From Guptibacillus hwajinpoensis (lineage in GTDB: Bacteria > Bacillota > Bacilli > Bacillales > Guptibacillaceae), in NCBI RefSeq assembly GCF_020171785.1, contig NZ_JAIVAE010000002.1, forward strand, positions 372,001-436,000: 64,000 nucleotides of DNA, written 5' to 3'. Below the pieces are notes generated by a model. It saw only the letters and a program-made list of their open reading frames with translations, was not told the DNA's origin and did not search any database. Positions within the stretch are counted from its first letter, which is position 1, and every line of letters begins with the position of its first letter. Of the stretch, positions 53,138-58,257 are shown in pieces. The position numbers and the translations under genes are program-made.

Positions 53138-54472
53138 ATGACAAACGTAAGAGAAGCAGCACTTGATGTAATTGAAAAAATCAATAAAAACCAGGCATAT
53201 AGCAACCTCTTGTTAAATGAAACAATTAAAAAGCACCAGTTAAGTCGCAAAGATACGGGCTTGTTAACCGAAATCGTATACGGAACGATTCAGCGAAAGA
53301 GTACTCTTGACTTCTATCTCGATGATTTTCTAACAAATCGAAAAAGAATTCAGACGTGGGTCATTTCTCTTTTACAACTTTCCCTTTATCAAATGGTTTA
53401 TCTTGACCGTGTACCGGATCGTGCCATTATTCATGAAGCAGTTGAAATAGCTAAAAAACGAGGACATAAAGGCATCAGTGGTATGGTGAACGGAGTGCTT
53501 CGGAATACCCAACGCAAAGGACTTAAGAACCCTGAAGCGATAGAGGATGTTGCAGAACGCATTTCGATCGCAAAAAGTCACCCACTCTGGCTCGTGCAAC
53601 GTTGGATCGACCAACTTGGTGTTGAAGCAACGGAAGCAATGTGTGAAGAGAACCTACTTTCCCCATATGTAACGGCTCGTGTAAATGTGACACGAACATC
53701 TGTTAATCAAGTGATCGACGATCTTGCAAAGGTAGGCGTAGAAGCGGTTCCAGGAAGTCTATCAGAAGATGCCATTAAAGTCATTCAAGGGAAGGTCCTT
53801 GATACAGACGTTTATAAGCGCGGTGACTTAACGATTCAAGACGAAAGTTCGATGCTTGTAGCACGAGCACTTGGCGTTGAACCTGGCCATAAAGTTCTTG
53901 ATGCGTGCGCAGCACCAGGTGGGAAATCAACTCACATCGCAGAGCGACTTAATGGATCTGGACACGTAAATTCTCTTGATCTTCATGCGCATAAAGTGAA
54001 ATTAATCAAGAAGCAGGCCCAGCGTTTGAACTTACGTGCGATTGAAGCAGAGACGCTAGACAGCCGAAATGTAGGTGAACGCTTTAAAGCCAAATCATTT
54101 GATCGCATTCTCGTTGACGCTCCATGTACTGGTTTTGGTGTGTTACGAAGAAAGCCTGATATTAAATGGTCGAAAAAAGAGGAAGATATTGAGCGCATTA
54201 CGGTTGTGCAAAAAGGAATTCTCGAAGCTCAAGCGTCTCTTTTAAAACCAGGTGGAAAATTGGTTTACAGTACGTGTACAATAGAAGGAGCGGAAAACCA
54301 GGAAGTGGTAAAACAATTCTTGGAAGAACATCCTGAATTCACCATAGACAAAACACTCGCTAACCGTTTGCCTAAGAATGTGGCGGAGTACTGTGAAGAA
54401 GGACAACTTCAGCTTCTTCCACATTATTTTGGCACGGATGGTTTTTATATCGCATGTTTAGTTAAAAAATAA
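53138..54472 (+). CDS. rsmB: 16S rRNA (cytosine-967-C5) methyltransferase
   Basis: Methylates C967 of 16S rRNA. An N-terminal NusB-like RNA-binding domain (about 1-140) precedes the methyltransferase domain with the SAM loop DACAAPGGKSTH, the DAPCTGFGVLRRKPD motif (catalytic PC) and YSTCTIEGAENQ (second catalytic Cys). An in-frame ATG at 53117 lies inside fmt; the ATG at 53138 matches the family N-terminus (444 residues). In B. subtilis rlmN follows; here prpC does. Confidence 0.94.
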   Translation: MTNVREAALDVIEKINKNQAYSNLLLNETIKKHQLSRKDTGLLTEIVYGTIQRKSTLDFYLDDFLTNRKRIQTWVISLLQLSLYQMVYLDRVPDRAIIHEAVEIAKKRGHKGISGMVNGVLRNTQRKGLKNPEAIEDVAERISIAKSHPLWLVQRWIDQLGVEATEAMCEENLLSPYVTARVNVTRTSVNQVIDDLAKVGVEAVPGSLSEDAIKVIQGKVLDTDVYKRGDLTIQDESSMLVARALGVEPGHKVLDACAAPGGKSTHIAERLNGSGHVNSLDLHAHKVKLIKKQAQRLNLRAIEAETLDSRNVGERFKAKSFDRILVDAPCTGFGVLRRKPDIKWSKKEEDIERITVVQKGILEAQASLLKPGGKLVYSTCTIEGAENQEVVKQFLEEHPEFTIDKTLANRLPKNVAEYCEEGQLQLLPHYFGTDGFYIACLVKK

Positions 54473-54486
54473 TGCTGGATGCTGGT

Positions 54487-54513
54487 GAATCGTCTGTTTA
54501 CAGGCGATTCTTC
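54487..54513 (+). terminator. Hairpin between rsmB and prpC, weak terminator or attenuator
   Basis: A 10-bp stem with one G-U pair (54487-54496 with 54501-54510) and a TTTA loop, followed only by TTC, so termination would be inefficient. It could tune prpC-prkC expression relative to the upstream genes. Confidence 0.4.
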
Positions 54514-54549
54514 CCGCATTCTTGTGATAAGAGGAGACGGGGTAATCAC

Positions 54550-55308
54550 ATGCAAGCAATCGCATTGACAGATCAAGGCCAAGTAAGGGCATACAATGAA
54601 GATAGCACCACATTTCTCCGCAATCACCTAGACGAATATTTAGTCATTGTAGCAGATGGTATGGGTGGTCATCAGGCAGGTGACGTGGCAAGTGCACTCG
54701 CAGTCGAATCATTGGAGAGAAGTTGGAAAGATGAAAAAGCAGGATTTCGCCCGGGAAGAGCGGAAGCTTGGCTTTTACATACGATTCGAAAAGCAAATGA
54801 AACGATCCTTGCCTTTTCAAAAGAAAAACCTGAATATGCCGGGATGGGCACAACGCTTGTCGCCGCAGTTTGTACTAATGAATTTATTACGATTGGCCAC
54901 GTTGGAGACAGCCGGGCTTATTTATTTGGAGATCGTGTTCTTAATCAAAAAACAAGTGATCATTCTCTTGTCAATGAACTCGTGAAGAGCGGTCAGCTTT
55001 CAGCTGAAGAAGCAGAAGATCACCCACGGAAAAACGTTCTCTTGCGTGCACTTGGAACAGATGATGATGTGAAAGTAGACGTTCACACGTTCGAGTGGGA
55101 TGAACATGAAGCAGCGCTTTTTTGCTCTGATGGGTTAACGAATAAAGTATCAGACAATGACTTGGAAAAAGTAATGAACTCTGAAGGTTCTCTTAAAGAG
55201 AAGGCAACAGAGCTTATACGCTTAGCGAACGAAGCAGGTGGAGAGGATAACATTACAGTTGCAATAATCGAGAACTCTTCAGCTTCTGGAAGTGAAACCT
55301 CATGCTAG
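54550..55308 (+). CDS. prpC: PP2C-type serine/threonine protein phosphatase PrpC
   Basis: Metal-dependent phosphatase that reverses PrkC phosphorylation. Metal-binding motifs: the N-terminal EDS (YNEDSTTFL), VADGMGGHQAGD, GHVGDSRAYL, CSDGLTNKV and GGEDNITV. The frame extends upstream to 54472 over the hairpin, but GAGGAGACGGGG fits ATG 54550, giving 252 residues (B. subtilis about 254). It overlaps prkC by seven bases, so kinase and phosphatase are made together. Confidence 0.95.
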   Translation: MQAIALTDQGQVRAYNEDSTTFLRNHLDEYLVIVADGMGGHQAGDVASALAVESLERSWKDEKAGFRPGRAEAWLLHTIRKANETILAFSKEKPEYAGMGTTLVAAVCTNEFITIGHVGDSRAYLFGDRVLNQKTSDHSLVNELVKSGQLSAEEAEDHPRKNVLLRALGTDDDVKVDVHTFEWDEHEAALFCSDGLTNKVSDNDLEKVMNSEGSLKEKATELIRLANEAGGEDNITVAIIENSSASGSETSC

Positions 55309-57359
55309 GTAAGCATATTAATGGACGTTACAAACTGCTTGAAGTCATTGGAGACGGCGGGATGGCTATCGTCTATCGAGCTTTAGATTTAATCCTGGAT
55401 CGGACGGTTGCTGTAAAGCTGCTTCGTCCAGAATTCTCCCAAGATGATGATTTTATCAAGCGATTTCGTCGCGAAGCTGAATCTGCGACCAGCCTGGCGC
55501 ATCCGAACGTAGTGTCAATCTATGACGTTGGGGAAGAAGAAGATTTTTACTACATCGTTATGGAATACGTAGCAGGAACCACGCTCAAGCAGAAGATTCG
55601 TGATCGTGGTGCTCTGCCTATTGAAGAAGCGCTAGATATTATGAAACAAATGACGTCTGCTATTGAGCATGCCCATGAGAATCACATCATTCACCGGGAC
55701 ATTAAGCCCCATAATATTCTTATTGATGAGTATGGAGATGCAAAAGTAACGGATTTTGGAATCGCGATGGCGATGACTTCCGCAACGATTACGCATACCA
55801 ATTCGGTACTAGGCTCTGTTCATTATTTCTCGCCTGAACAGGCCCGTGGGGCATTGGCGAATGAACGCTCAGATATTTATTCTCTTGGAGTCGTGCTATA
55901 CGAAATGGTAACAGGAGTACTTCCTTTTTCAGGGGACTCTCCGGTTTCTGTCGCGTTAAAGCACCTACAAGATCGTTTTCCTAAACCTAGTTTAATCAAT
56001 ACCTCTCTACCAAGAAATGTCGAGCATATTATTATGAAGGCAATGGCCAAAGAACCTGTCCAACGTTATCAAAGTGCACTAGAAATGTATGAAGCGCTCG
56101 ATATGGCTCTCGACCCGACAAAAGTTTATGAAAAACCACCCGAACAGGATGATGAAGAAGCGACAAAAGTCTTAACACCTGTCACACCTGATAGTCGAGG
56201 TGTAGAACAGAATACGGCGCCGCAACAACCTATTCATAATGATGAATCTAGTGAACCTCCAAAAAAGAAAAAGAAGGCAGGAAAGATCGCAATACTTGTG
56301 ATGCTCCTACTCTTACTTCTTGGCGGAGCAGGTGCGCTAGCCTTCACATTTATGCCTGATCTCTTCTATGTGAGTGACGTGGAAGTTCCAGATGTAACGG
56401 GAATGGAATACGAGGAAGCAAGATCCGCATTAATTGATCAAAAACTTGATGTAAAAAAAGAAGACCAGTTTAGTGAAGAAGTAGAGGAAGATCAGGTTAT
56501 CAGTCAGGATCCTACTGCTGGGACCATGGTGAAAGAAGATAGTACGGTCACACTTTATGTTAGTATAGGAGCTGAAAAAACAGAGCTTGGCGATTATATA
56601 GGGAAACAGAAAGATGAAGTGGAAGCTTTATTAAAAGAACAGGGATTTGAGAACATTAAATTCGAAGACGAATACCGTGACGATGCTCCTGAAGGTGAAA
56701 TCTTTGATCAAAGTCCTGAATCTGGGAAAATGGTCCTGCCAACAGAGGATGCGATCGTGATATGGTATAGCTTAGGTTCAGAATCATTTCCTCTCGAAGA
56801 TTTAAAAGATAAAACGAAAGCCGAAGTGGAAGAATATGCAGGGGATGAAGAGTTAAAGCTCGCATATAGTGAGCCAGAATTTAGCGACTCTGTCGAAGAA
56901 GGATCTGTTGTTTCTCATTCTCCAAGTACAGCTGCTCAAGTGAAAAAAGGCGATGAGATTACAATTACCTTATCCAAAGGTCCTGAGCCGGAACCAGAGC
57001 CGGAGCCCGAACCAGAACCAGAACCGGAGCCAGAACCGGAGCCCGAACCAGAACCGGAGCCCGAACTAGAACCAGAACCTTCTCCTGAAGAGGAAGCGAT
57101 TGTTGTTCCTAACTCCTTTAAGATCGATGTGAAAAAGGGTGAAGAACATTTAATTGAAATCCTTTACACTGATTCGACAACAGAAGGCGAAGAAATCTCT
57201 GAAACCATTACTGAAACAAAGGAAATTAATTTTGATTTAACGATCTATCCTGGTGAGGAAGCTTCGTATAAAACCTTTGTGGATAATAAAGAGAAAAAAG
57301 AAAACTCGAAAACCATCACATATGAAGAAGCAAAACAAAAATACGGTAAAAATGAGTAA
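55302..57359 (+). CDS. prkC: Membrane serine/threonine kinase PrkC with PASTA repeats
   Basis: Eukaryotic-type kinase sensing muropeptides; involved in spore germination and stationary-phase physiology. Kinase domain 1-270 with Lys39, HRDIKPHN (Asp133) and TDFGIA; a basic juxtamembrane segment; one membrane helix (about 327-350); three PASTA repeats (about 360-558). Then, unusually, a tract of 16 Glu-X dipeptides (15 Glu-Pro and one Glu-Leu, residues 562-593), followed by a C-terminal domain of about 90 residues. Total 685 against about 648 in B. subtilis, the excess lying mostly in the Glu-Pro tract. The short domain after it resembles the end of other Bacillus PrkC proteins only loosely. 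Confidence 0.94.
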   Translation: MLGKHINGRYKLLEVIGDGGMAIVYRALDLILDRTVAVKLLRPEFSQDDDFIKRFRREAESATSLAHPNVVSIYDVGEEEDFYYIVMEYVAGTTLKQKIRDRGALPIEEALDIMKQMTSAIEHAHENHIIHRDIKPHNILIDEYGDAKVTDFGIAMAMTSATITHTNSVLGSVHYFSPEQARGALANERSDIYSLGVVLYEMVTGVLPFSGDSPVSVALKHLQDRFPKPSLINTSLPRNVEHIIMKAMAKEPVQRYQSALEMYEALDMALDPTKVYEKPPEQDDEEATKVLTPVTPDSRGVEQNTAPQQPIHNDESSEPPKKKKKAGKIAILVMLLLLLLGGAGALAFTFMPDLFYVSDVEVPDVTGMEYEEARSALIDQKLDVKKEDQFSEEVEEDQVISQDPTAGTMVKEDSTVTLYVSIGAEKTELGDYIGKQKDEVEALLKEQGFENIKFEDEYRDDAPEGEIFDQSPESGKMVLPTEDAIVIWYSLGSESFPLEDLKDKTKAEVEEYAGDEELKLAYSEPEFSDSVEEGSVVSHSPSTAAQVKKGDEITITLSKGPEPEPEPEPEPEPEPEPEPEPEPEPEPELEPEPSPEEEAIVVPNSFKIDVKKGEEHLIEILYTDSTTEGEEISETITETKEINFDLTIYPGEEASYKTFVDNKEKKENSKTITYEEAKQKYGKNE
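56985..57080 (+). repeat. Hexanucleotide repeat encoding a Glu-Pro tract in PrkC
   Basis: Sixteen tandem six-base units of the form GAR-CCN (one is GAACTA), all in frame. The third codon positions vary between units, which suggests selection on the protein rather than recent slippage, although two 24-base blocks (ending in GAGCCC) look like a duplication. Confidence 0.9.
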
Positions 57360-57369
57360 GGAGTCCTAC

Positions 57370-58257
57370 ATGGCAGATGGAAGAATAATTAAAGCATTAA
57401 GCGGCTTTTATTACGTGCAGGATGAAGTGAATAAAGAAATTTACCAATGTCGAGGAAGAGGGAACTTCAGAAAGCGGAAGATCACCCCTCTTGTTGGTGA
57501 CTTTGTTGTATATGAAGCAGAAAATAAAACGGATGGTTACGTTCTTGAAATTAAAGAAAGAGAAAATGAATTGGTACGTCCTCCAATAGCCAATGTTGAT
57601 CAGGCATTTCTTGTATTTTCAGCAACTCAACCGACGTTTAATACGCAGCTTCTTGACAAATTTCTTGTTCATATTGAAGCGAGTGATATTCGACCGATCA
57701 TCTGCATTTCGAAGATCGATCTTGTTTCAAATGCTGAAGAAAATGAAATTATGGCTTATGCAGATGATTACCGGGAAGTAGGGTACGATGTGGTTGTTTC
57801 ATCTGCCCAGAGTCTTTCAGGCGTAGCAGAAATCGAACCCTATTTTCAAGAAAAAGTGACAGTATTTGCGGGACAATCTGGAGTTGGGAAGTCCTCACTC
57901 TTAAATGCCATAAATCCTGACCTTGAGCTTGATACAAGTGATATCTCTACGCATCTTGGTCGTGGAAAGCATACGACGAGACATGTTGAACTTATCCCTT
58001 TTGGATCTGGACTTGTAGCTGACACGCCTGGTTTTAGTTCACTCGACTTTAGAGGAATTGAAGCAGACGACCTATGGCTTTATTTTCCGGAGATACAAGA
58101 AAAAAGTAGTGAATGTAAGTTTCGAGCATGTACCCATCAATCAGAACCAGGCTGCGCGGTTAAAGTAGCGGTAGAAAAAGAAGAAATTAAAGCGTATCGT
58201 TACGATCATTATTCTTCTTTTTTCCAGGAAATCAAGGATCAAAAACGGAGGTACTAA
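57370..58257 (+). CDS. rsgA: Ribosome small-subunit biogenesis GTPase RsgA (CpgA, YloQ)
   Basis: Circularly permuted GTPase that checks late 30S maturation; B. subtilis CpgA also affects wall metabolism and is a PrkC substrate, which fits its position behind prkC. N-terminal OB domain (1-65), then G4 (ISKID) before the P-loop GQSGVGKSS (168-176), and DTPGF. The C-terminal zinc site is Cys249, Cys254, His256 and Cys262. The frame continues upstream inside prkC, but AAGGAG at 57358-57363 fits ATG 57370 (295 residues). Confidence 0.95.
   Translation: MADGRIIKALSGFYYVQDEVNKEIYQCRGRGNFRKRKITPLVGDFVVYEAENKTDGYVLEIKERENELVRPPIANVDQAFLVFSATQPTFNTQLLDKFLVHIEASDIRPIICISKIDLVSNAEENEIMAYADDYREVGYDVVVSSAQSLSGVAEIEPYFQEKVTVFAGQSGVGKSSLLNAINPDLELDTSDISTHLGRGKHTTRHVELIPFGSGLVADTPGFSSLDFRGIEADDLWLYFPEIQEKSSECKFRACTHQSEPGCAVKVAVEKEEIKAYRYDHYSSFFQEIKDQKRRY

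Follow-up and report, generated by a model that had tools for sequence, protein, structure and literature searches.

How did a long run of alternating Glu and Pro codons come to lie between the PASTA repeats and the C-terminal domain of PrkC in Guptibacillus hwajinpoensis, and what does selection preserve in it? The window that we analysed is the whole 64,000-nucleotide stretch of DNA carrying the gene, and its relevant features are listed in Table 1. By family model and domain content, the window protein is a bona fide PrkC. It passes the curated cut-off of the Stk1/PrkC family model, and its translation contains the Hanks-type kinase motifs HRDIKPHN and DFG. One hydrophobic stretch at approximately residues 331-352, identified by eye as a single transmembrane helix, precedes the three PASTA stretches, and the ectodomain has a computed net charge of -63. 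The gene order prpC-prkC-rsgA is the usual one.

Table 1 Features of the prkC locus, with positions counted from the first nucleotide of the window
Feature	Position	Strand	Evidence and remarks
PP2C-type phosphatase ORF upstream (prpC position)	54472..55308	+	Pfam PF13672, E 1e-14; overlaps the prkC start; ORF limits mechanical
prkC, PASTA Ser/Thr kinase, 685 aa	55302..57359	+	NCBIfam NF033483, 660.7 bits (curated cut-off 450)
PrkC kinase domain, residues 10-257	55329..56072	+	Pfam PF00069, E 5.3e-55
Three PASTA repeats, about residues 360-559	56379..56978	+	Pfam PF03793, three stretches, best 360-421; outer limit of the block drawn by eye from alignment and model
(Glu-Pro) tract, codons 562-593, 16 hexamers (15 EP + 1 EL)	56985..57080	+	Codon reading, Tandem Repeats Finder, relatives
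C-terminal Ig-like domain, residues 596-685	57087..57356	+	AlphaFold2 mean pLDDT 88.9; top PDB hit 3py9 (S. aureus PrkC)
rsgA GTPase gene downstream	57370..58257	+	Pfam PF03193, E 3.9e-61; start taken at ATG 57370

This tract directly follows PASTA repeat 3 and precedes the C-terminal domain, and together with the end domain (residues 594-685) it makes up the span 56985-57359. The original prediction, made from the sequence, described a 16-unit Glu-Pro stalk. The 16 hexamer units are indeed there, but one of them, unit 14 (GAA CTA at 57063-57068), encodes Glu-Leu, and the longest pure Glu-Pro run is 13 units. In 10,000 shuffles of the PrkC protein the longest such run was never more than 3. 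Codon reading and domain calls bear out the broader claim of a long acidic tract between the PASTA repeats and the end domain, with a computed net charge of -16 over the 32 residues. Tandem Repeats Finder gave its best score, 129, at a period of 18, and also reported periods of 6 and 24. In the ectodomain model, where the tract occupies residues 207-238, mean pLDDT is 67, 48, and 40 for model residues 211-220, 221-230, and 231-240, with confident flanks on either side.

Judging by fold and profile, the domain beyond the tract corresponds to the incomplete Ig-like domain already described in PrkC of S. aureus. Modelled alone, residues 596-685 form six strands and a terminal helix. A Foldseek search with this model returned 3py9 as the sole row below 0.001 (E 2.8e-4), and VIA gave Z 10.3 with an rmsd of 2.3 over 75 residues for the same structure, the next row having Z 6.5. 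A profile built from ten ectodomains also matched 3py9 (E 1.1e-43), with an alignment spanning both the PASTA repeats and the Ig-like domain. Given these matches, the last 90 residues are an already known part of the PrkC family. A review assigns the fourth domain of S. aureus PrkC an incomplete Ig-like fold with possible peptidoglycan binding (PMC3601408), and the same architecture is given for B. subtilis PrkC (PMC5786024). Pfam PF21160, the PrkC-like C-terminal PASTA-like domain, missed its gathering threshold on the end domain (16.1 bits against 27, E 0.016). An origin from Pfam PPC was also considered; that match (E 0.014) stayed under the cut-off, and the fold comparison decided the assignment instead. 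Purifying selection acts on the end domain as well, with omega at 0-0.22 in the 12 of 14 pairs where it was computable. Three PrkCs from other families (L076, L131, and L165) have Asn-Gly repeats, such as (NG)n, early in the end domain, which makes this another hot spot of low complexity in PrkC proteins.

Within the family, the tract is always retained and its length turns over fast. All 15 family genomes carry it (14 of 14 in the genus and one from a sister genus), at 4 to 19 units. The counts in the genus are 16, 15, 12, 11, 14, 14, 11, 13, 19, 17, 11, 7, 5, and 4, with seven imperfect units in the 19-unit tract, and the sister genus has 5. The 16 units of the window PrkC compare with 15, 12, and 11 in three PrkCs sharing 96, 96, and 97% identity with it. 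The proposal that the hexamer repeat could change length between strains is borne out among close relatives at the level of species, one genome having been compared per species (4-19 units overall, 11-16 at 96-97% identity). The near relatives with names are Pseudalkalibacillus (L017, L018) and Bacillus sp. (L019). The shortest tracts in the genus, 5 units in G001 and 4 in G012, sit in linkers of 20 and 18 aa, near the median for the order.

That median is 13 aa. It was taken from the best 143 of 192 order genomes outside the genus, ranked by score and covering 42 of 46 other families, with linker lengths read from one automatic MAFFT alignment. In these 143 PrkCs the linker from PASTA3 to the Ig-like domain is mostly plain, and it reaches at least 20 aa in 29, with mixed compositions. 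A run of at least four EP or DP units occurs in nine (L039, L041, L043, L045, L048, L051, L061, L069, and L098), which belong to five families and reach at most 8 units. Such a tract is thus neither common in the order nor, at 4-19 units, invariant in the family, the two properties in Bacillus PrkC that the original prediction had named as counting against it. The counts leave out L002 and L003 (not PrkC) and L021 (a true relative), where no PrkC was found by motif, and include L119, L122, and L169, whose N-termini were clipped by the start-finding rule. The longest PASTA3-Ig linker that we saw, 53 aa in L070 (G065), is Glu-rich with irregularly placed Pro and no strict Glu-Pro.

We also placed the carriers on a FastTree phylogeny of the kinase and PASTA parts with the linker excluded (161 rows, 24 carriers). 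All 15 rows from the family group together in a single clade (support 99). The EP state takes 7 changes, at least 6 of them forced by starred branches, although the tree is a quick one with some long rows and its change counts are blind to gain versus loss. The three clipped PrkCs are out of this tree, as are L017-L019, which are near-copies of genus genomes, and the far L027. Based on this topology, the EP/DP runs in the five other families probably arose separately.

The codons of the tract suggest that selection maintains Glu/Pro identity and leaves unit number to drift, likely by slippage. Between adjacent units in the 15 tracts, single-base codon differences comprise 165 synonymous ones and 10 that change the amino acid; a further 15 codon comparisons were multi-base and residue-changing, bringing the amino-acid changes to 25. 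Given the codon content of the tracts, 2.5-3.25 amino-acid changes would be expected for each synonymous one. Synonymous changes therefore far exceed amino-acid changes, the reverse of expectation, which argues for selection on Glu/Pro identity. Expressed as omega, the tract is at approximately 0.02 of neutral, or 0.05-0.06 with the multi-base changes, in an estimate that compares units within one tract sharing descent by slippage. Overall, 159 of the 174 units are EP and 15 are not.

Hexamer identity between units lies above that of shuffles at lags 1, 2, and 3 (P 0.015, 0.03, and 0.0015) and not at lags 4-6, with 33 of 129 pairs identical at lag 3 against 21.5 in the shuffles. This excess fits duplications of 6 to 18 bases, the lag-3 part pointing to those of 18 bases; in the window tract alone it is slight at lag 3 (3 of 13 pairs). 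When the tract is aligned as orthologous, its synonymous distance is near saturation, whereas dS is 0.09 for the kinase domain in that same closest pair, which suggests that the units are non-orthologous and that turnover is fast. Because the units are not orthologous, tract dS is inflated, and this applies to the comparison with the juxtamembrane cytoplasmic linker, where omega is 0.07-0.52 against 0-0.04 for the tract in the 7 of 14 pairs with both computable.

A second Glu-Pro protein in the same genome serves as a control. This membrane protein of the ABC2_membrane_3 type (L003/L186, contig C12:86312-88567), which we take to be YhgE-like, contains a pure (GAACCA)7 tract. The ortholog in G011, at 96% identity, has a single GAACCA unit instead of seven. 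Of the 14 genomes searched, four yielded no match; in the eight further relatives recovered, four of them at just 27% identity, no run reaches three units. The pattern identifies (GAACCA)7 as a fresh hexamer expansion. Unlike it, the PrkC tract is older, codon-diversified, and filtered.

The window PrkC shares its kinase, three PASTA repeats, and incomplete Ig-like end domain with the PrkC/Stk1 proteins of B. subtilis and S. aureus (3py9). It differs in the linker, which in S. aureus is short, at roughly 13 residues as judged by eye in the 3py9 alignment, and lacks EP repeats, and which here aligns at 44 residues with 16 EP-type units. The nine EP/DP-bearing PrkCs elsewhere in Bacillales also have their runs, 4-8 units long, between PASTA3 and the Ig-like domain, but these are shorter than most in the genus and lie outside the family clade on the kinase-PASTA tree. 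Outside PrkC, the tract resembles the TonB spacer in layout: there too, alternating Glu-Pro residues link a membrane-anchored part to a globular binding domain at the far end (PMC10771500). The Glu-Pro/Lys-Pro stretches of TonB are described in that paper as polyproline II helices resembling two static rods with some flexibility. The alternating array of that type is present in 15 of 16 units of the window tract, and codon reading found no Lys-Pro array in the window PrkC linker. TonB is a Gram-negative energy transducer whose spacer spans about 70 residues and includes a Lys-Pro half, and we claim no homology. The PASTA repeats of StkP of S. pneumoniae are reported to control septal wall thickness, as cited in PMC5786024; ectodomain geometry is likewise a possible wall gauge here, though for StkP the gauge is the PASTA repeats and not a low-complexity arm. 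Our literature search, mostly of papers outside subscription, found no title on a Glu-Pro spacer in PrkC and no paper that brings PrkC and PASTA together with Glu-Pro.

We propose that the tract is an extended acidic spacer, under selection yet tolerant in length, with a probability of roughly 0.62. It would be a lineage-specific enlargement of the normal short PASTA3-Ig linker, in which hexamer and 18-base slippage adds or removes Glu-Pro units and selection purges changes that disrupt the Glu/Pro alternation. The product is most likely an extended, strongly negative, non-folding, polyproline-II-like arm. Polyproline rises 0.31 nm per residue, and at this rise the 32 residues span at most 9.9 nm, with a computed genus range of 2.5-11.8 nm; the arm could thus place as much as about 10 nm between the PASTA rod and the Ig-like domain. 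With a charge of -16, it should stay extended and may avoid sticking to anionic wall teichoic acids. A precise ruler role is unlikely because length varies freely among sister species, and the variation between 16 and 15, 12, or 11 units at 96-97% identity may be enough for length to matter little. According to PMC5786024, PASTA deletions in B. subtilis leave PrkC localisation and exponential-phase activity unchanged, and a section heading there states that stationary-phase activation requires the PASTA domains. Fine ectodomain geometry may therefore be unimportant in growing cells, and a strong role there should not be assumed.

The main rival to a selected spacer is that the linker simply accepts any soluble low-complexity sequence, the EP array having grown from a PEPEP seed by hexamer slippage with solubility as its only benefit. 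Such tolerance would be in keeping with the long linkers of mixed composition in 29 of the best 143 of 192 order PrkCs, with the fast length change, and with the fresh expansion in the ABC2_membrane_3 protein. It accounts for the length drift but not for the codon pattern, in which Glu/Pro identity is far better conserved than the synonymous codons. The tract is also better conserved than the juxtamembrane linker in the 7 of 14 comparable pairs and is kept in 15 of 15 genomes, and we consider plain tolerance unlikely. A different departure from the spacer reading is that unit number changes within species by replication slippage and sets the wall or spore-cortex depth sampled by the Ig-like domain, so that siblings would differ heritably in how they sense muropeptides or germinate; this slippage-tunable arm is quite improbable. 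Repeats can be miscounted in short-read assemblies, so the tract could in principle be an artefact of repeat assembly. However, since it occurs in 15 genomes, two of them single-contig (G008 and G009), this is effectively excluded; the frames are open and the codons mixed, and we give such an error a negligible chance.

The remaining alternative is adaptation to cations or salt, with the acidic arm acting as a buffer for Na+, Mg2+, or protons close to the sensor where the habitat is marine or alkaline. The genus is associated with alkaline or marine environments, and the acidity of both tract and ectodomain is high. However, ectodomain acidity, computed without the linker and a crude proxy, is not correlated with the length of the EP run in a comparison of 43 families (rho 0.22, P 0.15), which fails to support the suggested link to salt or pH tolerance. 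Five Evansella and Amphibacillus relatives (L020, L022-L025), presumably alkaliphiles, have no EP array. PBP2B, whose Glu/Pro tail had been put forward as a hint of a shared adaptation, also offers no parallel: in 14 of 14 genus genomes its tail is short and acidic, holding two consecutive EP pairs at most and never an array. We therefore regard a cation or salt role as very unlikely. The PBP2B of the window ends in a short Glu/Pro-rich acidic tail (1408-1443). All 14 genus PBP2Bs end in ITD, and this conserved end may be more important than the acidic run.

The window PrkC thus looks like a modest variant of a known protein, one whose end domain was already known. With a nearly constant chemistry and a distance between PASTA rod and end domain that varies naturally from 4 to 19 units, the clade forms a comparative series. 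This series bears on the role of the Ig-like end domain and on whether ectodomain reach matters for sensing. The tract is also a clean case of selection acting on low-complexity composition while length is left free.
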